From Blautia sp. (GTDB lineage Bacteria > Bacillota > Clostridia > Lachnospirales > Lachnospiraceae): a DNA stretch of 64,000 nucleotides. The notes under the pieces are model-generated. The model did not search any database, was not told the origin of the DNA, and saw only the letters and a list, made by a program, of their open reading frames with translations. Numbering within the stretch: position 1 is the first letter of the stretch; each line of letters starts with the position of its first letter. The translations under genes were made by a program, and so were the position numbers. This document shows, in pieces, positions 6,467 to 41,312 of the stretch. Where the stretch lies: contig JAETNR010000006.1 of the NCBI GenBank assembly GCA_021772055.1, forward strand, positions 1-64,000, read 5' to 3'.

Positions 6467-7666
6467 ATGAATATTTCAGGAAAAGAGAAAAATCTGACAG
6501 TGGGTTTTTCATTTATTCAGGGGTTTTATTGGATGAGTTTTGCGGCAATTATGGGATTTTCCAGCCTTTATCTTTTAGATAACGGTTTTTCCAATACAGA
6601 GATCGGAATAATCATAGCCATTGCCGGGATTATTTCGGCAGTTCTGCAGCCGCTGCTTGCAAGCTATGCGGATAAACCGGAAAGCATGTCATTAAAGAAC
6701 ATGATTTTAGGTCTGTCAGGTATTCAGCTGCTATTGGGGATAATGCTTTTTTTGTCTTATCAGAAGCTTCTGGTCTTTACGGGAGTGTTTTATGGTTGCC
6801 TTGTGACGATTTTGCAGCTGATGTTACCATTGATTAATTCCCTTGGGATGGAAAGCCTGAACCAGGGGAAAAAGCTGAATTTTGGCCTGGCACGGGGAAT
6901 GGGTTCCGCGGCCTATGCCATTGCGGCTTATGCGCTTGGTATCTTTGTTGCGGATCTTGGGGCAAGGTTTGTGCCAATTTCCATCCTGGCAGCGTACTCC
7001 GTCTTTTTAGTGAGCCTGCTGTGTTTGTTTCCTTTTGAAAAAGCAGAAAAGAAAAACGGGGAAAGCGTAAAAAAGAGCAGCGGCAGCCCCATTGCCTTTT
7101 TGCACAGATATAAACGATTTGGAATCGTCCTTGTGGGATGCATTCTGGTTTATATCAGCCATGTGCTTTTAAACAACTTTACTTTTCAGATCGTAGAAAG
7201 CAAGGGAGGCGGAAGCCCGGAAATGGGTTTTGCCATGGCATTGGCATCCCTGATCGAACTTCCGACCCTGTTTTTGTTTTCCTTTATGCTGAAAAAAGTC
7301 CGCTGTGATATCTGGTTTCGGATCTCCGGCATTTTCTTCATGCTGAAATCCCTGGGAACACTGCTTGCGCCTACGATCCCTGTATTTTACGGTGTGCAGG
7401 TGTTCCAGCTTATGGGCTGGGCTTTGATCACCGTATCGTCAGTATACTATGTAAATGCGATTATGGACCAGCAGGATGCCATTAAAGGACAGGCTTATAT
7501 GACGATGACCTATACGATCGGAAGCGTGGTCGCTGCATTCCTTGGGGGAGCCCTGATCGATCTTGCAGGGGTGAATGCGATGCTCTTATTTGCAACAGTT
7601 TGTGCGGCACTTGGAATGATGATCATGCTTCTGGCTGCCGAGAAGGCAGAAGAAATCCCGGAATAG
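6467..7666 (+). CDS. MFS transporter (LacY/nucleoside symporter-like)
   Basis: Predicted 12-segment membrane transporter of 399 residues. The start (LTVGFSFIQGFYWMSFAAIMGFSSLYLLDNGFSNTEIGIIIA) is typical of MFS_1-like sugar or nucleoside proton symporters, with a cytoplasmic loop near residues 190-205 dividing two six-helix halves. ATG 6467 is preferred over the upstream in-frame ATG at 6410 because residues before it are hydrophilic and unlike the family, and AGG lies just upstream of 6467. It is monocistronic. The substrate cannot be named; an oligosaccharide is plausible given the neighbourhood. Confidence 0.85.
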   Translation: MNISGKEKNLTVGFSFIQGFYWMSFAAIMGFSSLYLLDNGFSNTEIGIIIAIAGIISAVLQPLLASYADKPESMSLKNMILGLSGIQLLLGIMLFLSYQKLLVFTGVFYGCLVTILQLMLPLINSLGMESLNQGKKLNFGLARGMGSAAYAIAAYALGIFVADLGARFVPISILAAYSVFLVSLLCLFPFEKAEKKNGESVKKSSGSPIAFLHRYKRFGIVLVGCILVYISHVLLNNFTFQIVESKGGGSPEMGFAMALASLIELPTLFLFSFMLKKVRCDIWFRISGIFFMLKSLGTLLAPTIPVFYGVQVFQLMGWALITVSSVYYVNAIMDQQDAIKGQAYMTMTYTIGSVVAAFLGGALIDLAGVNAMLLFATVCAALGMMIMLLAAEKAEEIPE

Positions 7667-9331: not shown

Positions 9332-10615
9332 ATGAAGGCAGAGCAGGTAAAAGAGTTATTAAAAAAGGATTCTTCCGTACAGCTTCTGGAACAGATGTAC
9401 GGCAAGGGAAAAGCAGAAGGAAATGCAGCACGCTATGAGATGGCTGCAGAGGGATTTCGGGAAAGATTCGGAGACAGAGAATTTGAATTTTTTACTTCCC
9501 CCGGAAGAACTGAGATCGGCGGAAACCATACAGACCACAACCAGGGGAGGATCCTGGCAGGAAGCATCCAGATGGATTGTGTTGCAGCGGCAGCAGCAAA
9601 TGATACGGAAACTATCCGCATTATCAGCGAAACTTATAAACAGGACCTGGTGATTGATCTCAGTGCCCTTGCTCCTGACGAACAGACAACAGGAACCCTT
9701 CCTCTGGTAAAGGGAGTTCTTGCAGGTTTAAAGAACAGGGGATTCAAAGTCCACGGATTTGATGCTTATGTAACCAGCAATGTAATCGGAGGCTCCGGCG
9801 TAAGCTCTTCCGCATCTTTTGAAATGCTGGTATGCTCTATTGTGGATTATCTTTTTAACGGCTATACACGAGATGTGGTTTCCTATGCAAAAGCAGGGCA
9901 GTATGCAGAGAACAAATACTGGCTGAAAGGCTCCGGGCTTCTGGATCAGATGGCCTGTGCAGTAGGAGGAATCATTACCATTGATTTTGCCAATGCAGAG
10001 GAACCGGCTGTGCGCAGAGTAGACTGCAATTTTGACGATCTTGGGCTGGATCTGGTGATCGTAAATACAGGAAAAGGACATGCGGATTTAAGTGCAGAGT
10101 ATTCCGCAGTGCCAAACGAAATGAAAAGCGTTGCCAAATATTTCCATAAAGAAGTGCTCGCTCAGGCGGAGGAAGAAGATGTGATCGCAAATGCCAGGGA
10201 TATTCGTAAGACTTGCGGCGACCGTGCCCTGCTTCGGGCATTCCATTTCTTTGAAGAAAACAAGCGTGTGGATAAACAGGTTGCTGCGTTGGAGAATGGA
10301 AATAAGGAAGCATTTTTGCGTGAGATCACAGCATCCGGCAATTCCTCCTGGAAATGGCTTCAGAACTGTTATCTCAATGAAACCCCTGATGACCAGGCGA
10401 TTACCTGTGCGCTATCTCTCACAGAATTGTTCCTTTCCGGAATCGGGGACGGAGCCTGCCGTGTACATGGCGGAGGTTTTGCAGGTGTGATTGCAGCTTT
10501 TGTACCAAAGAAGTATACAGAAGAATACAGAAGATATATAAATAAAGCATTGGGCGAGGGGAGCGCATTTGTGATGCATATCCGCAGCCAGGGTGCAGTT
10601 CGCGTAGAATTTTAA
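9332..10615 (+). CDS. galK: Galactokinase
   Basis: Phosphorylates alpha-D-galactose with ATP in the cytoplasm, the entry step of the Leloir pathway. The 427-residue GHMP kinase has the galactokinase signature near residue 56 (PGRTEIGGNHTDHNQG), the ATP-binding GHMP motif GGSGVSSSASFE near residue 151, and the C-terminal motif GDGACRVHGGGFAGVIAAF. It is somewhat longer than the enterobacterial enzyme. GGAG lies 11 nt upstream. galE follows after 57 nt; galT, which would complete the pathway, is not in this window. Confidence 0.95.
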   Translation: MKAEQVKELLKKDSSVQLLEQMYGKGKAEGNAARYEMAAEGFRERFGDREFEFFTSPGRTEIGGNHTDHNQGRILAGSIQMDCVAAAAANDTETIRIISETYKQDLVIDLSALAPDEQTTGTLPLVKGVLAGLKNRGFKVHGFDAYVTSNVIGGSGVSSSASFEMLVCSIVDYLFNGYTRDVVSYAKAGQYAENKYWLKGSGLLDQMACAVGGIITIDFANAEEPAVRRVDCNFDDLGLDLVIVNTGKGHADLSAEYSAVPNEMKSVAKYFHKEVLAQAEEEDVIANARDIRKTCGDRALLRAFHFFEENKRVDKQVAALENGNKEAFLREITASGNSSWKWLQNCYLNETPDDQAITCALSLTELFLSGIGDGACRVHGGGFAGVIAAFVPKKYTEEYRRYINKALGEGSAFVMHIRSQGAVRVEF

Positions 10616-10672
10616 AATACGCAGGATAAAAAGTAATTGCTTTGTCAGGATAAGATTAAGGAGGAAAAGATT

Positions 10673-29907: not shown

Positions 29908-29956
29908 ATGTTTGCAGATACAATACAATTAAAAATTTATGGTTTGGAGGAATCAT

Positions 29957-32900
29957 ATGTTATACAAAAAAACGGAAACATTGACAACGGATGCATTTCA
30001 AAATCCGGGAAGCGAGTACCGTGCTGCTCCTTTCTGGGCATGGAACTGCAAAATGACAAAGGAAGAGGTTGACAATTCCCTGGAATCCATAAAGAAGATG
30101 GGAATGGGAGGCGGTCATATACACTGCCGTACCGGCATGGACAATCCATATATGGGAGAAGAATTCCTGGAGCTGGTAAAATACAGCAACGAAAAATGCA
30201 AAGAATTAGGGCTGCTTACCTGGCTTTATGATGAAGATCGCTGGCCTTCCGGCGCAGGAGGCGGGCTTGTGACCAAAGATCATCAGTACCGTATGCGTTT
30301 TTTGATCTTTGCGCCTGAGAGACAGGAAGGAAAAGATATCGGAAAAAGTGAATTGAAATCCTCCGGGCAGGCAGTGCGCAGCGAGGAGCGGACCTATCTT
30401 GGAAGATATCAGGTAAAACTGGAAAACGGCTATATGACGGCCTATGAAAAAATGGATGAGGATGCACCGCTGAAGGAGGGCTTCCATGAGTGGTTTGCCT
30501 ATCTGGAGGTATCCGGAGATAATCCCTGGTTTAATAACGAGGCATATTTAAACACCCTGGACAAAAAGGCAGTAGAGCGCTTTATTGAAGTGACCCATGA
30601 AAAATATGAGGAGCTTCTCGGGGAAGAATTTGGGAAAAGTATTCCTGCTATTTTTACAGATGAACCTCAGTTTTCCCATAAGACAACCCTGGGCTTTGCA
30701 GATGAAAAAGCGATCGTGACAATTCCGTATACAGATGATCTGGAGGAAACCTTCCAGGCTGCTTATGGACATAGCCTTCTGGAACACCTTCCGGAATTGT
30801 TCTGGGAACTGGATGGGAATCAGGTATCCAGGATCCGTTATGAATACCATGACCATATTGCAGAGCGTTTTGCCTCTGCTTTTGCAGATACCATCGGAGC
30901 ATGGTGCGAGGAGCATCATATTATGCTGACGGGGCATATGATGGAGGAACCTACCCTGGAGACACAGACGGCTGCCCTTGGAGAGGCAATGCGTTCTTAC
31001 CGTTCTTTTGGAATTCCGGGAGTAGACATGCTCTGTGACAGAAGAGAGCTGTCTACCATGAAGCAGACCCAGAGTGCGGTACACCAGTATGGAAGGCCGG
31101 GCGCCATGAGCGAGCTTTACGGTGTGACAAACTGGGATTTTGATTTCAGAGGACATAAGGTACAGGGAGACTGGCAGGCTGCCCTTGGAGTAACGGTTCG
31201 TGTGCCTCATCTGACCTGGACCAGCATGGCAGGAGAGGCAAAAAGGGATTATCCTGCAGCCATTGGTTATCAGTCCCCCTGGTATGAAGAATATCCGTTG
31301 ATCGAAAATCATTTTGCACGCGTGAATTCTGCTCTTACCCGGGGAATTCCCCATGTTCGTCTGGGCGTGATTCATCCGATTGAATCCTACTGGCTGTTCT
31401 GGGGCCCGAAGGAGCAGACTGCGGCAGTTCGGGAAGAAATGGATGAAAACTTTACCAATCTCATTGACTGGCTTTTGTATGGATGCATTGATTTTGATTT
31501 TATTGCGGAGTCTCTTCTTCCGGAACTGAACAAAGGACAGGAGGATGTGCCCGGGCTTAAGGCAGGGGAAATGAATTACGATGTGATTCTTGTGCCCAAC
31601 TGTATGACCCTTCGGAGCACCACCCTGGAAATCCTGGAAGAATTTAAGAAAAGAGGCGGCCGGGTAATCTTTGCAGGGGATGCGCCTGTATTGGAGGATG
31701 CGTGTCCGTCAGAAAGAGGAAAAGCGCTGGCGCTCCAATGTGAACAGATTCCTTTCTCTAAAAATCAGATTCTGGGCGCGTTAAAGTCTGTACGTGAAAT
31801 TGAAGTGAAAGAAGCAGACGGAAGGGCAAGCAAAAATCTGATCTACCAGATGCGTGAAGAAGGAGAGAACCGCTGGCTGTTCCTTGCACATGTAAACAGA
31901 GTAATCGAGGAAAGCGGGAAGAGTATGGATATCGGAGGCATCGGAAATCTGATGTCCAATGAGGATCTCCCGGTGGAGGAACGTCTGAAAATTACCATTG
32001 CAGGGGAATGGAAAGTGATATTGTATGATACCATGACAGGGAACATTGAAGAACTGGGCTGTGCCTATGAAAACGGAAATACGGTTCTTTCCCGTGTTAT
32101 GTATGATCATGACAGCATGCTGGTTTATCTGGAGCCCGGACGAAGAGAGGGAAATTCCTGCAGCAAAGAGACAGACGGGCCGGAAAGTGAAATCAGGATT
32201 CCATCGGAAACGGAAGTGGTATGCAGTGAGCCAAATGTAAGCATCCTGGATCTTGCAGAATACCGCTTTGATGACGGGGAATGGAATTCGGAAGAAGAAA
32301 TCCTGCGAATCGACAATAAATTCAGAGAGGTGCTGGGATATCCCTTCCGCATGGAAGCTTTTGCCCAGCCCTGGACAAACCATGCCCCGGAGAGTTTTGA
32401 CCATACGCTGTCCCTGCGCTATACTATTTATGCGGATACGGATCTTACAGATATTTCTCTTGCTATGGAAAATGATGAAACAGCCAGAATTTTCCTGGAT
32501 GGCATGGAAGTAGAGAATAAGCAGACCGGATGGTATACGGATCATAAGATCCGAACAACCGCTCTTCCTGAGATAACAAAAGGAACTCATGTCCTGCAGG
32601 TGGAAATTCCTTATAATTCCAAAGTAAACATAGAAGCCATGTTCCTCTTGGGAGAGTTTTCTGTAACCGTAAAAGGCAGAAAGCAGATTCTTGGAAAGAA
32701 AGAATCAACAGCTGCATTTATGGATGCTGCGAGACAGGGATACCCGTTCTACGGCGGTAATCTTACATACCGGATTCCTTTTGTGAGCAAAGGCGGAGAA
32801 GTAAGTGTGCAGGCAAGTATGTTCCGCTCCCCTGTAATAAAGGTTTCTGTGGACGGAAAGGAAAAAGGCTATATTGCATTTTCACCATATAAAGCAGATC

Positions 32901-33112
32901 TTGGCACACTTTCTCCTGGGGAACATCTGTTGGAGCTGACCGTATTCGGAAGCAGAATCAATACCTTTGGAAGTATTCATAACTGTAACCAGAAGGAATT
33001 CTGGTTTGGCCCCAATGCATGGAGAACTACAGGAGATCAGTGGTCCTATGAATATCAGTTAAAACCGGTGGGGCTTCTGAAGGCACCGATATTGACGGAA
33101 AAAGTGGATTAA
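29957..33112 (+). CDS. Large glycoside hydrolase (GH106-like)
   Basis: Predicted cytoplasmic glycosidase of 1051 residues; no signal peptide. The N-terminal catalytic part has YRAAPFWAWN near residue 20, GGGHIHCRTGM, WLYDEDRWPSG and FTDEPQFSH, carrying acidic residues suited to catalysis. The C-terminal third has jelly-roll carbohydrate-binding modules of the GH2 type (DLTDISLAMENDETARIFLDG). The layout recalls alpha-L-rhamnosidase-like GH106 relatives, but I am not sure of the family. Start 29957 has GGAGG 6 nt upstream; the in-frame ATG at 29939 does not. Monocistronic. Confidence 0.7.
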   Translation: MLYKKTETLTTDAFQNPGSEYRAAPFWAWNCKMTKEEVDNSLESIKKMGMGGGHIHCRTGMDNPYMGEEFLELVKYSNEKCKELGLLTWLYDEDRWPSGAGGGLVTKDHQYRMRFLIFAPERQEGKDIGKSELKSSGQAVRSEERTYLGRYQVKLENGYMTAYEKMDEDAPLKEGFHEWFAYLEVSGDNPWFNNEAYLNTLDKKAVERFIEVTHEKYEELLGEEFGKSIPAIFTDEPQFSHKTTLGFADEKAIVTIPYTDDLEETFQAAYGHSLLEHLPELFWELDGNQVSRIRYEYHDHIAERFASAFADTIGAWCEEHHIMLTGHMMEEPTLETQTAALGEAMRSYRSFGIPGVDMLCDRRELSTMKQTQSAVHQYGRPGAMSELYGVTNWDFDFRGHKVQGDWQAALGVTVRVPHLTWTSMAGEAKRDYPAAIGYQSPWYEEYPLIENHFARVNSALTRGIPHVRLGVIHPIESYWLFWGPKEQTAAVREEMDENFTNLIDWLLYGCIDFDFIAESLLPELNKGQEDVPGLKAGEMNYDVILVPNCMTLRSTTLEILEEFKKRGGRVIFAGDAPVLEDACPSERGKALALQCEQIPFSKNQILGALKSVREIEVKEADGRASKNLIYQMREEGENRWLFLAHVNRVIEESGKSMDIGGIGNLMSNEDLPVEERLKITIAGEWKVILYDTMTGNIEELGCAYENGNTVLSRVMYDHDSMLVYLEPGRREGNSCSKETDGPESEIRIPSETEVVCSEPNVSILDLAEYRFDDGEWNSEEEILRIDNKFREVLGYPFRMEAFAQPWTNHAPESFDHTLSLRYTIYADTDLTDISLAMENDETARIFLDGMEVENKQTGWYTDHKIRTTALPEITKGTHVLQVEIPYNSKVNIEAMFLLGEFSVTVKGRKQILGKKESTAAFMDAARQGYPFYGGNLTYRIPFVSKGGEVSVQASMFRSPVIKVSVDGKEKGYIAFSPYKADLGTLSPGEHLLELTVFGSRINTFGSIHNCNQKEFWFGPNAWRTTGDQWSYEYQLKPVGLLKAPILTEKVD

Positions 33113-33195: not shown

Positions 33196-33643
33196 TTATT
33201 TACAGTCTTCGCAGGTTTCCATACATGGCATATCAAAACTCGGGTTAAACGCATAGAAGTTTTTTGAATCAAGCTGCTCCTGGACACTTCTCAGGGCTTC
33301 ACCGAAGCGCTGGAAATGTATGACTTCCCGGGCGCGGAGGAACTTGATGGGGTCCGCGATTTCCGGAATATCGCGGACTACGCGGAGGATGTTGTCATAG
33401 GTGGAGCGTGCTTTCTGTTCTGCAGCCAGGTCTTCAAACAGATCGGTGATGGGATCTCCTTTGCTCTGGAATTCGCAGGAATTAAAGGGGATTCCTCCGG
33501 CAGCCTGGGGCCAGATGCCAACAGTGTGATCGATATAGTAGGGGCCAAAACCGGATTTTTCGATTTCCTCCATGGAAAGGTTTCTGGTTAACTGGTGCAC
33601 AATGGTGGAGACCATTTCCAGGTGCGCAAGCTCTTCTGTACCT
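33196..33643 (-). CDS. cotJC: cotJC, C-terminal part (separated from its N-terminus by an inserted element)
   Basis: Encodes the last 148 residues of the manganese-catalase-like spore coat protein CotJC, from GTEELAHLEMVSTIVHQLTR to the stop. Strong family segments include GPYYIDHTVGIWPQAAGGIP and EDLAAEQKARSTYDNILRVV; the metal-ligand Glu/His of a ferritin-like four-helix bundle are expected among them. The frame is open upstream for about 90 bp but has no family similarity and no start codon with a ribosome binding site there. The matching N-terminal part lies 3.8 kb away at 37416-37601. As it stands, this fragment cannot be expressed as CotJC without DNA rearrangement. Confidence 0.88.
33639..33643 (-). 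repeat. Attachment-site core AGGTA, recombinase-proximal end
   Basis: AGGTA on the minus strand at the junction of element DNA (upstream, ...AACAAATC) and cotJC C-terminal codons (CAGAAGAGC...). It is 88 bp from the recombinase stop. Confidence 0.7.
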
Positions 33644-33730
33644 GATTTGTTTCTGAAATTGCGCCTGATGCTTCCGTAAATAAGCTTTGCCGGGTCCGGT
33701 TGTATAAATTCCAGGATGTCTGCAGGCGGG

Positions 33731-35449
33731 TTAGCTGCGCTCAGGGGAAAACAATTCCAGACTTAAGATATCCGTGGTGAAGCTTTGAAGCTTTCCATGT
33801 GTATGAATCTTCAGATGAAAGAAAAAGGGCAGATCATGAAGCCAAATGCTTAAGGATTTATCAGGATAGATGATGACTTTTTCCAGAATTTCCTGAAGAA
33901 AAGTGAAAGGAGCAGGAACATTCCCGGAAGTTTTGCATTGGCAAAAATCAAGAATCTCTGTAAGGTTTTGGCGGATGTTCTCTATAGTTTGCGGAGACTG
34001 TTCCGGTTTTTCCGGATGACATTCCGGCAGGGAGTGTTCCCTCCTGACAGTGACCTGCTCTTTTATCAGAAACCGGCATTTTTTTTCATATTCCAGGCAC
34101 TGGTTTTTGAAATCTTCTTTGGTAATGAGACCGTCCAGATACAGATCAAGAGCTTTTTCTTTTTTGGTCTTGAGAAGCTGTATTTCTTTTTCCTGGTTAT
34201 GTACGCAGGAAGCTTCAGAGGTGGAAGAGGAGCAGGAAAACATAGAGGAAAGTTCTTGCAAAATTTCTGCTTCCAACCCTTTTGAAAAAGAGGGGAAAGC
34301 CTGACAAAGGCAGAATTGTATGCATGTAACCAGGGTGTTTTCGTGGATGGAAGGATTGCTGCACCCCTGACAGGACTGCATTTCATTGCCTTTTCCGGAG
34401 CCATGCAAAGCAGCTTCATAACAGCGCCAGGATCTGGAAATGCTGCCGTCAGCCCGTTTTTTGGTATGGATTACATAGCTTCTTCCGCAGTTTCCGCAGA
34501 ACAGCTTTCCGCTGCACCAGTAACGGGTACTGTACCGGCTTTTGGATCGAATGCCGGAGGAAGAGGAAAGTGAGGATCTGGAAACTTTTGTATTTGCGCT
34601 TCTTCTTTGCAGTTCCTCCTGGGTCCGATTCCACAGATCTCGGTCAATAATGGGCTGGTGGTGATTTTCAAGATAAATCAGTTCTTCATGAGCATGATTT
34701 GCTTTTCTTTCATGGGTGAGATAATTTGGGGTAAAAGATTTTTTCTGGCAAAGATCCCCTGCATATTTTTCATTACGGAGGATGCGCAGAATGGAAGCGC
34801 TTGACCAGTACTGCGCCTGTTTGGGATGGATTCCTTCCAGAAGGAGCTCTTTGGCAATGGCAGGAGTACTCTTTTTTTCATTGGTATATTTGTGGAAGAT
34901 GGCACGAACGATGGGCACTTCGGAATCGTTAAGAAAAAGGATACCGTTTTTTACCGTATATCCCAGAAGGTTCCGGCCAAAAACAATGCCCTGCTCCATA
35001 CGGCGTTTTTGTCCCCATTTGACACGTTCTGAGGTTTTTCGACTTTCTTCCTGGGCAATGCTTGCCATAATGGTAAGCCGAAGTTCTCCGTCTGCCGCCC
35101 TGGTATCAATATTGTCAATGGTAAAAATAACTCCGATTCCGGCTTCTTTCAGTTTTCTGGTGTAGGAGAGGGTATCTACCGTATTTCTGGCAAAACGGCT
35201 TACTTCTTTTGTAAGAATAAGGTCAATTTTTCCTTCACAGGCATCAGAAATCATGCTGTTAAATCCAGTGCGGTTCTTGGTCTGCGTTCCGCTGATCCCT
35301 TCGTCATAATAGATATTTACCAACTGCCAGTCTGCATGATTTTCGATGTACTCTGCAAAGTATTTCTTCTGGCTTGCAAGGGAATTGGACTGGTCTTCCC
35401 GGTCAGTGGATACACGGCAGTATGCGGCTGCTCTTATAGGATCCTGCAT
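33731..35449 (-). CDS. Large serine recombinase
   Basis: Site-specific recombinase of 572 residues, presumed to integrate and excise the cotJC element. Domains: catalytic resolvase domain (residues 5-150) with nucleophile Ser14 in YCRVSTDRED and the Arg-rich LTKEVSRFARN motif; recombinase domain (about 165-290); zinc ribbon (CSGKLFCGNCGRSY...SCQGC, about 315-370); coiled coil (about 425-465); C-terminal tail. Start 35449 is chosen over 35491 because GGGAGG lies 7 nt upstream. That Shine-Dalgarno overlaps the stop of the small ORF before it, so translation is coupled. All key catalytic residues look intact. Confidence 0.93.
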   Translation of the reverse strand: MQDPIRAAAYCRVSTDREDQSNSLASQKKYFAEYIENHADWQLVNIYYDEGISGTQTKNRTGFNSMISDACEGKIDLILTKEVSRFARNTVDTLSYTRKLKEAGIGVIFTIDNIDTRAADGELRLTIMASIAQEESRKTSERVKWGQKRRMEQGIVFGRNLLGYTVKNGILFLNDSEVPIVRAIFHKYTNEKKSTPAIAKELLLEGIHPKQAQYWSSASILRILRNEKYAGDLCQKKSFTPNYLTHERKANHAHEELIYLENHHQPIIDRDLWNRTQEELQRRSANTKVSRSSLSSSSGIRSKSRYSTRYWCSGKLFCGNCGRSYVIHTKKRADGSISRSWRCYEAALHGSGKGNEMQSCQGCSNPSIHENTLVTCIQFCLCQAFPSFSKGLEAEILQELSSMFSCSSSTSEASCVHNQEKEIQLLKTKKEKALDLYLDGLITKEDFKNQCLEYEKKCRFLIKEQVTVRREHSLPECHPEKPEQSPQTIENIRQNLTEILDFCQCKTSGNVPAPFTFLQEILEKVIIYPDKSLSIWLHDLPFFFHLKIHTHGKLQSFTTDILSLELFSPERS

Positions 35450-35453
35450 AGGT

Positions 35454-35597
35454 TTACCTCCCGGGACGAAGAAGGATTTCAAGCTGTGCATCCGTGAGAA
35501 GCCTGCGTTTATGAAGCTCCTGACAGATGGCGGATTTCAGAAGATTCCGGAATTGTTTTTGCTGTGGGGCTGTTAATAATGGAATAGAATGATTCAT
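35454..35597 (-). CDS. Small SHOCT-like protein upstream of the recombinase
   Basis: A 47-residue ORF starting MNHSIPLLTAPQQKQF and ending in CQELHKRRLLTDAQLEILL, which resembles the short SHOCT helical motif found at the ends of many oligomerising proteins. AAAAAGG lies about 9 nt upstream. Its stop codon overlaps the recombinase ribosome binding site. It could be an accessory or directionality partner of the recombinase, but that is inference from position only. Confidence 0.65.
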   Translation of the reverse strand: MNHSIPLLTAPQQKQFRNLLKSAICQELHKRRLLTDAQLEILLRPGR

Positions 35598-35626
35598 AGA
35601 AAAAACCTTTTTAAAAGAGTTATTAA

Positions 35627-35655
35627 AGCATATGAAAAACAATAAAAAGTTATTC
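35627..35655 (-). promoter_or_regulatory. Sigma-E-like promoter of the recombinase operon
   Basis: Minus strand GAATAAC-N14-CATATGCT. The sigma-E consensus is close to KMATATT-N13-15-CATACAnT. The start would fall near 35620, giving a 20-25-nt leader before the small ORF. CATATGCT also occurs upstream of cotJA. No sigma-A promoter of comparable quality is visible here. Confidence 0.6.
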
Positions 35656-35674
35656 CGGAGTGCAGTTTTTGCAC

Positions 35675-35705
35675 CTGCCAGGCACCGCGGCGGGCTGCCC
35701 GGCAG
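35675..35705 (-). terminator. Hairpin after sdaAA
   Basis: CTGCCGGGCA / TGCCTGGCAG stem (one G-U pair). There is no immediate T-run, so termination may be partial. It separates the sda transcript from the recombinase operon. Confidence 0.45.
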
Positions 35706-35721
35706 ATACGGAAATTAAAAA

Positions 35722-36591
35722 TCACATTCCCAGATTTTCCCTTATTGCTTTGGCCGCAGGTGTATTGGCTACACCGCCTTCTCCGGTTTCACGAAGGGAA
35801 ACGTGCATGGATTCTCCGATTTCCTTCATCGCATCAATAACCTGATCCGGCGGGATGCGGCTGGTGATGCCTGCCAGTGCCATGTCCGTGCAGGAGAGCG
35901 CATTGACTGCACCGATCACATTTCGCTTGACACAGGGAACCTCTACCAGCCCTGCAACAGGGTCACACACCAGCCCCAGAAGGTTTTTCAGGGCCATAGC
36001 TGCAGCCTGGCAGATCCTATGGGAATCGCCTCCTCGAAGGTGTACTAAAGCCCCTGCAGCCATGGCAGAAGCGGAGCCAATCTCCGCCTGACATCCTCCT
36101 GCCGCACCCGCGATAAAAGCTCTGCTTGCGATTACCTGTCCGATTCCTGCAGACACATACAGGGCCTCAATTACCTGGTCATCCGTAACTTTTTCCTCCT
36201 GGTATAAGGGAAGAAGGACTGCAGGAAGTACCCCGCATGCACCCGCAGTAGGTGCTGCTACGATCCGCTTCATGCAGGCATTGGATTCGCCCATCTGAAG
36301 CGCCTGGGCGATGACTTTTGCCATAAAATCTCCGCAAAGAGGGGTGCCATTTTTGCGGTAAGTTTCCATCTGCGCGCCTGTTTTTCCCACTAGGCCGCTG
36401 CGGGAAAGCTGGTTGCCGTCATAGGCTTCGCTGGCTTCCACCATGGCCCTCCACATCTTTTCCATTGTCTGCAGGGAATCCTCCATAGTGACGGAACGTT
36501 CATTCATATCATCCAGCAGAATGACTTTCCAGAAGGGGATATTTTCTCTTGCGCCTGCTTCTATGATTTCCTGTAAAGATTGATATGCCAT
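35722..36591 (-). CDS. sdaAA: L-serine dehydratase alpha subunit
   Basis: Catalytic, iron-sulphur-containing half of L-serine ammonia-lyase, which converts serine to pyruvate and ammonia. The 289-residue product shows the iron-sulphur cysteines in TAGACGVLP, AGGCQAEIG and the CDPVAGLVEVPC segment. It begins directly after the sdaAB stop (adjacent, no gap) and ends near a hairpin. It lies inside the cotJC element, an unusual place for a metabolic enzyme. Confidence 0.95.
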   Translation of the reverse strand: MAYQSLQEIIEAGARENIPFWKVILLDDMNERSVTMEDSLQTMEKMWRAMVEASEAYDGNQLSRSGLVGKTGAQMETYRKNGTPLCGDFMAKVIAQALQMGESNACMKRIVAAPTAGACGVLPAVLLPLYQEEKVTDDQVIEALYVSAGIGQVIASRAFIAGAAGGCQAEIGSASAMAAGALVHLRGGDSHRICQAAAMALKNLLGLVCDPVAGLVEVPCVKRNVIGAVNALSCTDMALAGITSRIPPDQVIDAMKEIGESMHVSLRETGEGGVANTPAAKAIRENLGM

Positions 36592-37260
36592 TTATGCTTC
36601 CTCCCTGCTCATAAGATAAGTAACCTTGAAAATGCCATCCATGGCTTCCAGCCTGCGGATGATATCAGAAGGAACCGGCTGGTCGGATTCAATGACCATC
36701 ACTGCCTGGCCGCCCTTCTTTTCACGGTGAAGGTTTAAGGTGGCGATATTCACGGAATACTGGGTTAAAAGAGAAGTGACCTGTGCCACGTATCCCGGTT
36801 TGTCCTGATTGCGGACGATCAGTGTGGGATTTTCGCAGGGACAGTTTACGTCAATGCCGTCCAGTTTGTTCAGCATGATTCTTCCGCCGCCGAGAGAGGA
36901 TGCCTGCACCTCGAGAAGCTTGCCTGTGGAGCCTGTCACTTTTAAATATGCCGTATTAGGATGGGCACCGGAAATCTGGGCATGATAAAAGGAAAAGTCA
37001 AGCCCTTCCTCCTTTGCCGCCTGAAAACTATCCGGAATCCGCATATCATCCGGCAGCATTCCAAGAAGCCCTGCAATCAGCGCCTTGTCTGTTCCGTGCC
37101 CCTGTCCGGTGGCGGAAAATGATCCATGAAGTCCGATCTCCGCCCTGACCGGCCTGCATCCAAGCAGTGTTCTGGTAATATAGCCGATTCTTACGGCGCC
37201 TGCCGTATGAGAACTGGACGGTCCTACCATGATAGGACCGAGGATATCAAATATGTTCAT
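36592..37260 (-). CDS. sdaAB: L-serine dehydratase beta subunit
   Basis: Regulatory half of the two-subunit serine dehydratase, 222 residues. It has the N-terminal GPSSSHTAGAVRIG motif and a C-terminal ACT domain (IVRNQDKPGYVAQVTSLL, about residue 146 onward) that usually binds the amino acid. GGGAGG is just upstream. First gene of the sdaAB-sdaAA pair; promoter candidate at 37296. With SdaAA it feeds pyruvate and ammonia into fermentation. Confidence 0.95.
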   Translation of the reverse strand: MNIFDILGPIMVGPSSSHTAGAVRIGYITRTLLGCRPVRAEIGLHGSFSATGQGHGTDKALIAGLLGMLPDDMRIPDSFQAAKEEGLDFSFYHAQISGAHPNTAYLKVTGSTGKLLEVQASSLGGGRIMLNKLDGIDVNCPCENPTLIVRNQDKPGYVAQVTSLLTQYSVNIATLNLHREKKGGQAVMVIESDQPVPSDIIRRLEAMDGIFKVTYLMSREEA

Positions 37261-37295
37261 ACTCCCATTCCTCCCAGGAAATATACTTTTTCATC

Positions 37296-37304
37296 AGTAT
37301 AACA
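37296..37304 (-). promoter_or_regulatory. Extended -10 promoter of sdaAB-sdaAA
   Basis: Minus strand TGTTATACT, an extended -10 of the vegetative type; -35 weak. It contrasts with the sigma-E-like promoter of the recombinase. Confidence 0.45.
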
Positions 37305-37382
37305 AATATTTCCCGGAAATACCATTTTTATCGGAAAAAACATAAAGAAATTCCAGATTAGCCTATGCAGAAGCGCACTGTT

Positions 37383-37601
37383 TTATACAGAAGGATGCAT
37401 TTTTGTCAATGAGATACCTACATCATTCAATACCGCCGTAGCTGTATGGTTGGGCATGGCAAAACGCTGGGAGAGATATCTCATGGAAGCGCCAATTTCC
37501 CCGTCGGGGCCGCCATATTGACTCATGATGAACTGTGCAAGCTTGGCGTTTGGCGTTTTGATATTTACCGGGTACTGTAATCTTTTTTCATAATTCCACA
37601 T
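37383..37601 (-). CDS. cotJC: cotJC, N-terminal part (truncated by the element)
   Basis: Encodes residues 1-62 of CotJC (MWNYEKRLQYPVNIKTPNAK, then GGPDGEIGASMRYLSQRF) up to AVLNDVG, followed by ten residues from element DNA (ISLTKMHPSV) and a stop. It starts three bases after the cotJB stop codon begins, with AAGGAGG in the end of cotJB. Joined to 33639-33196 at the AGGTA core it would give a continuous 630-bp gene. CotJC is a manganese-catalase-like inner coat protein that needs CotJA for assembly in Bacillus subtilis. Confidence 0.88.
   Translation of the reverse strand: MWNYEKRLQYPVNIKTPNAKLAQFIMSQYGGPDGEIGASMRYLSQRFAMPNHTATAVLNDVGISLTKMHPSV
37415..37419 (-). repeat. Attachment-site core AGGTA, cotJB-proximal end
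   Basis: AGGTA on the minus strand at the junction of cotJC codons (...GATGT) and element DNA (TCTCATTGAC...). It matches the copy at 33639-33643; bases either side differ. Confidence 0.7.
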
Positions 37602-37886
37602 TTATCTGCATCCTCCTTCCTCTTCCCACGGGAATGGCTGCTGGGCCCATTGAAAGGTATCACTGCAGGAATCTACGGCACTGTCAATGGTGAGCGGGCC
37701 GAATTCCCTGGCATACCGGCATAAAAGCTCGTTTCGCCTGGATGCATTTTTTCGATAAAATTCCATTGCTTTTTCGTCACATGGATGGGTGTCCAGATAG
37801 AGCAGGATATCATTTACGGCAAAGCTGGTTTCATTGATTTCCTGCATCATTTTTCTGCGATTGGAAGACTGGCTGGAGGACATCAT
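37602..37886 (-). CDS. cotJB: Spore coat protein CotJB
   Basis: Coat polypeptide of 94 residues, second gene of the cotJ operon. The family core is plain: SFAVNDILLYLDTHPCDEKAMEFY, then REFGPLTIDS and the tryptophan-rich end (WAQQPFPWEEEGGCR). The start at 37886 overlaps the cotJA stop (ATGA). Longer frames to 37961 would run inside cotJA without family similarity. cotJC follows immediately. Confidence 0.9.
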   Translation of the reverse strand: MMSSSQSSNRRKMMQEINETSFAVNDILLYLDTHPCDEKAMEFYRKNASRRNELLCRYAREFGPLTIDSAVDSCSDTFQWAQQPFPWEEEGGCR

Positions 37887-38242
37887 CGGCACATACCTCG
37901 CTTTCCGCAGAATGGTTTGCAAAGTTCCGGAAATACAGTGCCCATCTGCAAAGCCCTGCATAATTCAAAAGTGTGAGTGAAAGTCTGACAGGGGACATAT
38001 CCCATGGCAGGAGGAAGCTCATCTGCCTTGGCAAGGACGGAAGTCCCGGAAGAAACCGCGCCGGGCATCCGGCAGCAGCCTTCTTCTCTTTCACATTCGC
38101 ACGGGCGGGAGTTTCTCTCTGTGCAGTGATTCTGCATTGCTGTGCGCTCCGGCATTGCCATTCGTCCGGCAGGCATTTTATTCATGCCGCAGGTAGTGCG
38201 GTAAGGACGGCCGCAGGAACGGCCCATCTGATAATTTTCCAT
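37883..38242 (-). CDS. cotJA: Spore coat protein CotJA
   Basis: First gene of the cotJ operon, 119 residues. The conserved C-terminal part (PPAMGYVPCQTFTHTFEL, then GTVFPELCKPFCGKRG) identifies CotJA. The first 65 residues form a longer, Cys/Arg-rich N-terminal extension, common in clostridial versions. AAAGGA precedes the ATG by 9 nt but lies inside the right arm of a 14-bp stem (38253-38266), so translation depends on which transcript is made. Confidence 0.88.
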   Translation of the reverse strand: MENYQMGRSCGRPYRTTCGMNKMPAGRMAMPERTAMQNHCTERNSRPCECEREEGCCRMPGAVSSGTSVLAKADELPPAMGYVPCQTFTHTFELCRALQMGTVFPELCKPFCGKRGMCR

Positions 38243-38243
38243 G

Positions 38244-38308
38244 AAAAAAAATCCTTTCTGTTTCTAATTTGCGGTTACACTTTAGCATATGTAATAGAAA
38301 CAGAAAGG
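38244..38308 (-). terminator. Terminator and ribosome-binding-site-masking hairpin before cotJA
   Basis: Perfect 14-bp inverted repeat CCTTTCTGTTTCTA / TAGAAACAGAAAGG, arms 38295-38308 and 38253-38266, loop 28 nt. On the minus strand the right arm is followed by A and eight T, then cotJA ATG. The arm contains the cotJA Shine-Dalgarno. It would end tetR transcripts and mask cotJA translation. Confidence 0.75.
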
Positions 38309-38312
38309 TGTG
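38284..38312 (-). promoter_or_regulatory. Mother-cell-type promoter candidate of cotJABC
   Basis: Minus strand CACA-N17-CATATGCTA matches the sigma-K pattern (mACm-N16/17-CATAnnnTA), and the -10 also fits sigma-E. The -10 sits in the hairpin loop, so the predicted start (near 38277) leaves the left arm out of the transcript. Confidence 0.5.
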
Positions 38313-39133: not shown

Positions 39134-39191
39134 TAAAATGCAATGCAAGGCGAAATGGAAATTCGGCCTGAAATAGAGAGAGGAGAATATG

Positions 39192-41312
39192 ATGGAAAAA
39201 TTTGGAAAAGGGATTGTGAAGCACAAAACCCTGATACTTCTGCTGGGAATACTGCTTCTGATCCCATCAGCAATGGGGTATTTGAAAACCCGTGTAAATT
39301 ACGACATTCTTTCTTATCTGCCGAAGGATATTGAGACAATGAAGGGACAGGATATCCTGGTAGATGAGTTCGGGACAGGGGCATTCTCCATGGTGGTGCT
39401 GGAAGGAATGGAGTTTAAAGACATTTCCAGTCTGAAGGCAGAAATGGAACAGGTGGATCATGTAAAAAACATTATCTGGTATGATTCCTTTGCAGATATT
39501 ACCATACCGGCAGACCTGCTTCCGGACAAAATAAAAGACGCGTTTATGAAAGATGACTGCACCCTGATGGCAATTATATTTGACACGACCATGTCGGCTG
39601 ATGAGACGATGGATGCCATTGAGGAGCTGAGACGTCTTGCGGGAAAGCAGTGTTTTATCAGTGGAATGTCAGCCGTTGTAACAGATACCAAGAACCTTTC
39701 CAATAAAGAAACCCCCATTTATGTCTGCATTGCCGTGCTTCTTTCTTCTTTGGTTCTGGCGCTTACGATGGATTCTTTTTTGATACCGCTGCTGTTTCTT
39801 TTAAGCATTGGAATGGCCATTGTTTATAATCTGGGAAGCAATGTCTTTCTCGGAGAAATTTCTTACATAACCAAAGCATTGAGCGCGGTACTGCAGCTTG
39901 GGGTAACCATGGATTATTCTATTTTTCTGTGGCACAGCTATCAGGAATGCTTCCGGAAACGGTTACACCGGGAGGAACAGGAAACCGGAGAAAAATTAAA
40001 TAAAGCATCGGAAAGACAGATGCGGAATGACGCTATGGCAGAGGCCATTGCTGCTACCATTACCTCGGTTGTGGGAAGCTCTGTTACTACAGTGGCCGGA
40101 TTTATTGCACTTTGTTTTATGAGCTTTACCCTTGGCATGGACCTGGGAGTGGTTATGGCAAAGGGTGTTGTATTTGGCGTCATTGCATGCGTCACGATTC
40201 TGCCGTCCATGATCCTGATTTTTGATAAAGGAATACAGAAAACCAGGCATAAGCCGCTGCTCCCGAAATTCTCCGGGCTTCCTGGATTTGTATCCAGATA
40301 TTATGGAATCATTCTGCTTCTGTTCGTGATTATCTGGGTCCCTGCTGTATATGGAAATCAGCATGCAGAAGTGTATTATAATCTGGATGAAACACTTCCG
40401 AAGGATTTAGCCAGTATTGAGGCAAACCAGAAGCTGAACGATACCTTTGAGATGAACTCTACGCATATGCTTCTGATCGACAGTGATATGGAGCCAAAAA
40501 AGGTTACAGCCATGACAGATGAGATCAGGGATCTGGACGGCATCAAATCCGTGATCGGCCTGAATGCCATGCTGGGAAGTGAGATTCCGAGAGAACTTCT
40601 TCCTGAAAAAATTACCGATATGCTGATCAATGAAAACTATGAATTAATGCTGGTAAGCAGTGAGTATAAGGTGGCATCCGATGAAGTAAATGCCCAGTGT
40701 GAAGCACTGAATAAAATTATTAAAGAATATGATCCATCCGCTATGTTGGTAGGAGAGGCACCTTGTACAAAGGATCTGATTGAGATCACAGATCAGGATT
40801 TTAAAACCGTAAACTTTGTGTCCATCGGAGTGATTCTGCTGATTATCCTGATCGTTTTCCGCTCCATAAGTCTTCCGGTGATTCTGGTTTTGGTGATTGA
40901 ATTTGCAATCTATATTAACATGGGAATTCCTTATTATACCGGCACGGCAATCCCATTTATTGCGTCCATTGTAATCGGTACAATACAGCTTGGCTCCACT
41001 GTGGATTATGCTATTTTAATGACCACCCGTTATAAGCTGGAACGGCATAACGGCGCAGGAAAAAAGGAAGCAGTGAAGATTGCCCACAGTACCTCCATAC
41101 AGTCTATTGTGGTCAGTGCACTAAGCTTTTTTGCAGCTACTTTTGGGGTTGGCGTTTACTCGGATATTGATATGATCAGTTCCTTATGTACCTTAATGGC
41201 AAGGGGAGCTCTTATCAGTATGGTGGTGGTTCTGCTGGTTCTTCCGGCAATGTATCTGCTTCTTGATAAGGTAATTTGTGCAACATCTATTGGGTTTAAA
41301 TCTAAAAAATAA
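39192..41312 (+). CDS. MMPL/RND-family transporter
   Basis: Inner-membrane exporter of 706 residues with the duplicated RND layout: helix, large extracellular loop (residues 30-170), five helices, repeated once. Each half has the proton-relay-type motif: LQLGVTMDYSIFLWHSY and IQLGSTVDYAILMTTRY. The family exports lipids, siderophores or antimicrobials. ATG 39192 (6 nt from AGGAG) is favoured over ATG 39189. It is transcribed with the repeat protein that follows 15 bp later and probably repressed by the divergent TetR. Confidence 0.9.
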   Translation: MEKFGKGIVKHKTLILLLGILLLIPSAMGYLKTRVNYDILSYLPKDIETMKGQDILVDEFGTGAFSMVVLEGMEFKDISSLKAEMEQVDHVKNIIWYDSFADITIPADLLPDKIKDAFMKDDCTLMAIIFDTTMSADETMDAIEELRRLAGKQCFISGMSAVVTDTKNLSNKETPIYVCIAVLLSSLVLALTMDSFLIPLLFLLSIGMAIVYNLGSNVFLGEISYITKALSAVLQLGVTMDYSIFLWHSYQECFRKRLHREEQETGEKLNKASERQMRNDAMAEAIAATITSVVGSSVTTVAGFIALCFMSFTLGMDLGVVMAKGVVFGVIACVTILPSMILIFDKGIQKTRHKPLLPKFSGLPGFVSRYYGIILLLFVIIWVPAVYGNQHAEVYYNLDETLPKDLASIEANQKLNDTFEMNSTHMLLIDSDMEPKKVTAMTDEIRDLDGIKSVIGLNAMLGSEIPRELLPEKITDMLINENYELMLVSSEYKVASDEVNAQCEALNKIIKEYDPSAMLVGEAPCTKDLIEITDQDFKTVNFVSIGVILLIILIVFRSISLPVILVLVIEFAIYINMGIPYYTGTAIPFIASIVIGTIQLGSTVDYAILMTTRYKLERHNGAGKKEAVKIAHSTSIQSIVVSALSFFAATFGVGVYSDIDMISSLCTLMARGALISMVVVLLVLPAMYLLLDKVICATSIGFKSKK

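Follow-up and report, generated by a model that had tools for sequence, protein, structure and literature searches.

The closest described relatives of the system studied here are DNA elements that interrupt sporulation genes. According to the available part of one report (PMC5025042), the skin element in sigK of Bacillus subtilis and Clostridioides difficile is excised precisely, and in the mother cell only, by a large serine recombinase, with a directionality factor that in C. difficile is under sigma-E control. The accessible text on gin, which interrupts gerE in Bacillus cereus ATCC10987, describes a 28.6-kb element with three recombinases and 31 genes (PMC5595907), and the available parts of two further papers list SPbeta in spsM, vfbin in spoVFB, vrin in spoVR and yin in yabG (PMC4191935, PMC10747680). 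For phi027 of C. difficile R20291, the available part of the source places the attachment site beside a CotJC-like catalase gene (PMC11222575). In this study, we analyzed a 64,000-nucleotide stretch of a Blautia sp. genome (contig JAETNR010000006.1, positions 1 to 64,000; hereafter the window), in which the spore-coat gene cotJC is split by a 3.8-kb element carrying a serine recombinase and a serine dehydratase operon.

As far as the accessible sources describe these systems, the window element resembles gin in being a nonphage element with a serine recombinase, a small mother-cell gene as target and an overlap repeat at the junction, and gerE is rebuilt in sporulation as we propose for cotJC; unlike gin, it is only 3.8 kb long, has one recombinase, carries serine dehydratase genes and sits in a coat gene. 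With skin it shares the large serine recombinase and, as proposed for cotJC, precise excision in the mother cell, whereas its target is a structural coat gene instead of a sigma factor, and phage genes were not found in it. SPbeta, vfbin, vrin and yin are described in the available texts as prophages or prophage-like, one element at one place, whereas cotJC is entered at five sites by elements with different recombinase clades; and the cotJC homologue of phi027 lies downstream of the right attachment site (attR) and is not described there as interrupted, whereas the window cotJC is split. This kind of element is already known from skin, gin, SPbeta, vfbin, vrin and yin; new within the literature searched are the choice of cotJC, the use of five positions within only 630 bp of gene, the three-piece genes and the mix of element types on one target. 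No interrupted cotJC was found in that literature, of which coverage was partial, and an earlier mention is possible.

We consider it very probable that the window element is a site-specific, excisable element that is removed from cotJC in the mother cell during sporulation. The split itself, proposed in the original prediction from the letters of the DNA, is confirmed: sequence and open reading frames (ORFs) agree on two cotJC parts on the same strand and in order, with 3,776 bp between them and the break at codon 62. The genes of the cotJ locus are as follows.

37416..37601, minus strand: N-terminal part of cotJC, codons 1-62, matching positions 1-63 of PF05067 and aligned with intact relatives
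33196..33639, minus strand: C-terminal part of cotJC, from T63, matching positions 63-198 of PF05067
37602..37961, minus strand: cotJB (PF12652), immediately upstream of the N-terminal part together with cotJA
37883..38242, minus strand: cotJA (PF11007)

Scripted joining of the flanks gives the predicted 209-residue CotJC in frame, with no codon lost or gained and no indel. The assignment to manganese catalase-like CotJC also stands, since the Mn_catalase profile PF05067 matches both halves; the CotJC alignment shows conserved E and H residues, and the protein is homologous to PDB entries 1jku and 2v8t. At E<=0.001, only these two cotJC pieces were found in the window's own genome (G000; other genomes are given G-numbers and loci L-numbers), with no second intact cotJC.

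The element is delimited and filled as follows.

33642..37417, minus strand: intervening element, 3,776 bp, G+C 0.47, its ends ambiguous inside the core
37415..37418, minus strand: left core GGTA (left attachment site, attL)
33639..33642, minus strand: right core GGTA (attR)
36592..37260, minus strand: sdaAB, L-serine dehydratase beta (TIGR00719 above cut-off; PF03315 and ACT)
35722..36591, minus strand: sdaAA, L-serine dehydratase alpha (TIGR00718 above cut-off)
35454..35597, minus strand: 47-residue ORF, a candidate directionality factor, directly upstream of the recombinase
33731..35449, minus strand: large serine recombinase of the site-B clade described below (PF00239, PF07508, PF13408), whose listed ORF starts at 35491

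The predicted AGGTA is indeed present at both junctions; in the sister genome G083, which shares both the element and its site, one copy is AGGTA and the left copy is CGGTA, so that the common core is GGTA at most. Conservation adjoining attR likewise supports this boundary from sequence: over the final 26 bp of the element, 23 of 26 positions are identical in G083, compared to 6 of 26 (ungapped) for the preceding 26 bp and 18 of 26 for the first 26. The large serine recombinase expected inside the element has Resolvase, Recombinase and zinc-ribbon domains, and its start is more likely at 35449 (572 residues) than at 35491. It scores below the curated NCBIfam cut-offs for XisF of the cyanobacterial fdxN element (114 against 375 bits) and for CcrB of the staphylococcal cassette chromosome (120 against 900 bits). 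The serine dehydratase cargo, like the recurrence in other genomes, adds to what the original prediction had seen; sdaAA has no further match in its own genome at E<=0.001. The 47-residue ORF is 66% identical to its G083 counterpart and has no match in Pfam, PHROG or NCBIfam scans. A prophage origin was considered and rejected, the element holding no phage structural or lysis gene but just sdaAB, sdaAA, the small ORF and the recombinase.

The comparison of G000 with G083 shows how long the split has been borne. The proportions of synonymous differences (pS) are 0.51 for sdaAB, 0.49 for sdaAA and 0.57 for the recombinase within the element, and 0.51 for the flanking TetR gene and 0.53 for cotJC outside it; this equal divergence means that the element was most likely already present in the ancestor of the two. 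Over the same period, the ratio of nonsynonymous to synonymous substitution rates (dN/dS) was 0.02 for cotJC and 0.13 for the recombinase, and the proportion of nonsynonymous differences (pN) in cotJC was 0.007 in the N-terminal and 0.022 in the C-terminal part. So low a pN in a gene that is split implies that both halves stayed constrained and that the gene stayed functional, which is most simply read as a gene expressed whole at some time. Across the genus, the median pN/pS is 0.098 among split-split pairs (153 pairs), compared to 0.099 among intact-intact pairs (190 pairs). These values bear on a first alternative, namely, that the element inactivated a dispensable cotJC which is now decaying. 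Insertional mutants of cotCB and cotD can be cited for such dispensability, as can a further cotJC-like gene (62 to 67% identity) in eight genomes of the genus, including G083, and the median pN/pS of the C-terminal part at site B is slightly higher than in intact genes (0.124 in 15 pairs compared to 0.093 in 190 pairs). Yet a cotJC dN/dS of 0.02 at a pS of 0.5, with the element most likely present in the ancestor, equal overall constraint in split and intact genes, the open frames of all 18 joined genes (below) and the failure to find the paralogue in the window's own genome make such a dead end very unlikely.

To put the locus into a broader perspective, we surveyed 64 genomes of the genus. 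Matches to cotJC were found in 44 of these, with the gene intact in 19, in two or three pieces in 21, and represented by a single piece in 4.

In pieces: G000, G083, G073, G014, G029, G036, G017, G033, G027, G086, G077, G080, G004, G066, G072, G011, G015, G013, G009, G075, G020
One piece only: G010, G008, G081, G007

Two of the single pieces are uninformative, since that of G081 ends at a contig end and that of G007 starts at the second base of its contig. The pieces are spread over more than one contig in 8 of the 21 split cases (G029, G017, G033, G072, G011, G015, G020 and G080). Split and intact states have changed recently, as between G004 (split) and G067 (intact) at a pS of 0.17 and between G086 (split) and G087 (intact) at 0.37. 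For comparison, 4 of the 64 genomes (G029, G077, G034 and G081) have a sigK gene divided in two, so that cotJC is interrupted more often than sigK in this genus. In the window's own genome, the best sigK match is unbroken (G000:C183:63535-64140, positions 24-224 of 227) and, at 296.0 bits, scores slightly below the cut-off of 298.65.

The 21 genomes provide 24 junctions, which fall at five sites in the 630-bp gene.

Site A, nucleotides 84-99: 10 junctions, motif QYGGPDGE
Site B, nucleotides 182-193: 6 junctions, motif DVGTEEL
Site B', nucleotides 199-205: 2 junctions, motif TEELAH
Site C, nucleotides 403-407: 4 junctions, motif AAEQKA
Site D, nucleotides 517-530: 2 junctions, motif RFGEA

In the alignment, these motifs are among the most conserved stretches of CotJC; the breaks presumably lie close to the metal-ligand residues of Mn catalases. 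At all 24 junctions the N and C sides meet at homologous codons, and the longest shared word comes from the in-frame register alone at 17 of them, while at 21 no other register does better, the three exceptions being G036 at site B and G013 and G080 at site C; such abutment in such a register is not due to chance. Genes were joined for 18 of the 21 split genomes (G033, G020 and G015 being left out), and all 18 are open and undegraded, with 207 to 215 residues and without indels; the switch point chosen for G029 gave R, not T, at residue 63. Three genomes have cotJC in three pieces—G036 (sites B and C, on one contig), G080 (A and C) and G033 (A and B')—and would need two excisions each. Viral contigs likewise show middle pieces of cotJC between two different recombinases (L195 and L196, sites A and B; L201, sites B' and C), and in L212 (G277) a site-B recombinase adjoins a middle piece that spans residues 28-62. 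These junctions also speak to whether the halves might be made separately and assemble as a Mn-catalase-like protein without any DNA excision. Both halves are conserved, and a 139-residue ORF starts at M71 within the window C-terminal part, as a split protein would have it; but the break points are five and lie within conserved motifs, the window C-terminal part has no start codon at its junction, and the recombinase itself is constrained, all of which renders a split protein extremely improbable.

Each site goes with its own recombinases. In a tree of 22 recombinases from interrupted genes and 23 others of the genus, those of site A (9; support 1.0), site B (6; 0.987), site B' (2; 1.0) and site C (4; 1.0) are each monophyletic with no outsider among them, and site D has a single member. 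The outsiders were drawn from 25 loci with a match to the site-B protein, less two removed by a length and motif filter, and the test is therefore sharpest for site B. The link extends beyond the genus: a search of 392 genomes of the order gave 17 further loci that match the window recombinase at E<=1e-80, and a cotJC piece lies within the available stretch in 6 of these, cut at site B in every case, and in none of the other 11. On viral contigs, all three relatives of the window recombinase adjoin a cotJC piece, and within the genus the four closest recombinase loci (L033-L036) have one, whereas the 11 checked among 25 more distant loci do not. These sequence associations support a tie between the window-type clade and site B across several families. 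Eight interrupted cases in other genera give A-type recombinases in G409, G344 and G404, a C-type in G408 and a B-type in G405. G173 has only a distant recombinase, 22% identical to a C-type; A-, B- and C-type recombinases were not found in the available stretches of G205 and G406, nor any of these recombinases in the available parts of viral contigs L198 (site A), which carries another integrase, and L200 (near B'). With these five cases, not every cotJC insertion is yet tied to these clades.

The elements that share this target differ widely. Among 13 elements that were cut out for comparison, the shortest (G027) is 2.1 kb long with a recombinase and little else, and the longest (G036, site C) has 29 kb with a relaxase and, by eye, other conjugation-like proteins; in G004 and G066, the pieces are 39 and 55 kb apart. 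The G009 element carries an Na/Pi cotransporter, the site-B element of G036 an MttB-type methyltransferase and a corrinoid protein, and the G013 element ORFs resembling ATP-binding cassette transporters (by eye). A truncated cotJC is also present in L198, L199, L200 and L202, on contigs that encode phage tail, lysis or terminase proteins, and cotJC forms the end of contigs of this sort. The sdaAB-sdaAA pair recurs in the other orientation in the site-A element of G080 and, in G013, outside the element, upstream of TetR and cotJ. We regard it as likely that, in the genus and the wider order, cotJC is assembled anew at each sporulation, with up to two elements at once, each of which its own recombinase has to remove within one mother cell, and that phages, small metabolic cassettes and a conjugative-type element have brought at least five recombinase lineages to the five sites near conserved metal-binding motifs.

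For the window, we propose the following course. From the precise junction, the recombinase would have inserted the element into codon 62 of cotJC. In growing cells cotJC would be silent and its split harmless; in the sporulating mother cell, the recombinase, probably with a directionality factor (perhaps the 47-residue ORF), would recombine the two GGTA-containing sites, the element would leave as a circle, and a sigma-K-type promoter would then drive transcription of the restored 209-codon cotJC together with cotJA and cotJB. As the mother cell dies, the spore lineage would keep the element and its serine dehydratase genes. The two promoter-like sequences of this scheme are as follows.

38283..38310, minus strand: sigma-K-like promoter of cotJABC, CACC ... 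CATATGCTA
35627..35655, minus strand: sigma-E-like GAATAAC-N14-CATATGCT, upstream of the small ORF and the recombinase

The pattern AC-N15 to 17-CATANNNTA, which we take to be the sigma-K form, is present upstream of cotJA in 25 of 26 genomes and absent in G036. The available part of a C. difficile study describes cotJ-type operons as sigK dependent (PMC3789822). At the place of the sigma-E-like box, G083 has GCATAAC-N14-CATATTCT, which gives KMATAAC-N14-CATATNCT as the pattern common to both genomes; the window box has a shuffle p of 0.023, as one among 17 regions scored. Scored against what we assume to be the sigma-E consensus, 11 of 17 recombinases reach at least 10, compared to 18 of 90 control ORFs; the upstream sequence was too short for scoring in another two recombinases. 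The site-C recombinases, that of G075 and both of the site-B element of G036 score below 10, and most single shuffle p values exceed 0.05, so sigma-E control of the recombinase is suggestive only. The same upstream regions bear on whether this is an ordinary mobile element, excised stochastically or during vegetative growth, that repairs cotJC as a by-product with no link to sporulation. Sequences resembling sigma-A promoters lie, by eye, upstream of the recombinases of G009, G036 (site C) and G075, and for yin of Clostridium botulinum, the available part of its report (PMC10747680) describes a subpopulation that has the element excised throughout; against this, a crude scan found no sigma-70-type site on the coding strand of the window element, and the equal divergence of element and flanks in G000 and G083 indicates an element that is not quickly lost. 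We therefore hold excision without timing to be unlikely.

Several observations weigh against programmed excision from the window cotJC, in addition to the slightly weaker constraint at site B: (i) the further cotJC-like gene of the sister genome G083, at 62% identity, is a second cotJC there; (ii) the sigma-E-like box of the window is a weak match to the consensus, and both recombinases of the G036 site-B element have no box; (iii) the assignment of the 47-residue ORF as directionality factor is a guess; (iv) the junction of the excised circle is absent from the window's own assembly, although DNA from growing cells would not be expected to contain it; (v) the site-B recombinase of G073 (L064) is truncated (309 residues, with one TGA in the match) while its cotJC is conserved, so that a different recombinase may be required for excision in G073, or the truncation may be recent; and (vi) the reconstructed attachment site of the circle (attP) is not detectably symmetric, its arms matching at 9 of 20 positions (shuffle p 0.71). 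Symmetric attP arms are a usual, not a strict, feature of large serine recombinases, and they are found in 9 of 13 elements (p<=0.003), with G027 at a p of 0.026 and G083 (0.099), G000 and the site-B element of G036 (0.96) not significant. Set against these points are the in-frame junctions of 21 genomes, the purifying selection, the equal divergence of element and flanks and the clade tied to the site, which together support the original comparison of the window element to skin.

Of the classifiable genomes of the genus, 21 have cotJC in pieces and 19 have it intact, and the data thus point to programmed excision of DNA in roughly half of them, its target being a spore-coat gene and not sigK. 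As clades with separate sites in a single conserved gene, these enzymes offer natural material for studying how large serine recombinases choose their sites, with pairs of attachment sites readable from genomes, and three-piece genes would show two independent excisions within one developmental program. The data also carry a warning: where such spore formers are annotated for the presence of genes, cotJC will be recorded as broken.

Some minor observations were made along the way. Scans of viral contigs with the attP half-site pattern gave no match, nor did Rfam and tRNA scans over the whole window. A 12-bp inverted repeat (CCTTTCTGTTTC / GAAACAGAAAGG) surrounds the cotJ -10 region at 38253-38308 and is also present, by eye, in G083 and G027. 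The site-B element of G036 (L066, 12 kb) has two site-B-type recombinases in opposite orientation and looks, from this arrangement, like two elements in tandem at one site. In L187 (G205:C68), the C-terminal half of cotJC cut at site B is present twice, at 6664-7137 and 10204-10626; the copies are 99.4% identical over 508 bp and lie 3.5 kb apart near a contig end, as a tandem duplication or an assembly effect. The window's own genome is rich in serine recombinases, with 14 matches to the window recombinase. Beyond the cotJ locus, the window has a gene resembling alpha-L-rhamnosidases of glycoside hydrolase family 106 at 29939-33112, convergent to the C-terminal part of cotJC, and an MMPL-family transporter gene at 39189-41312.

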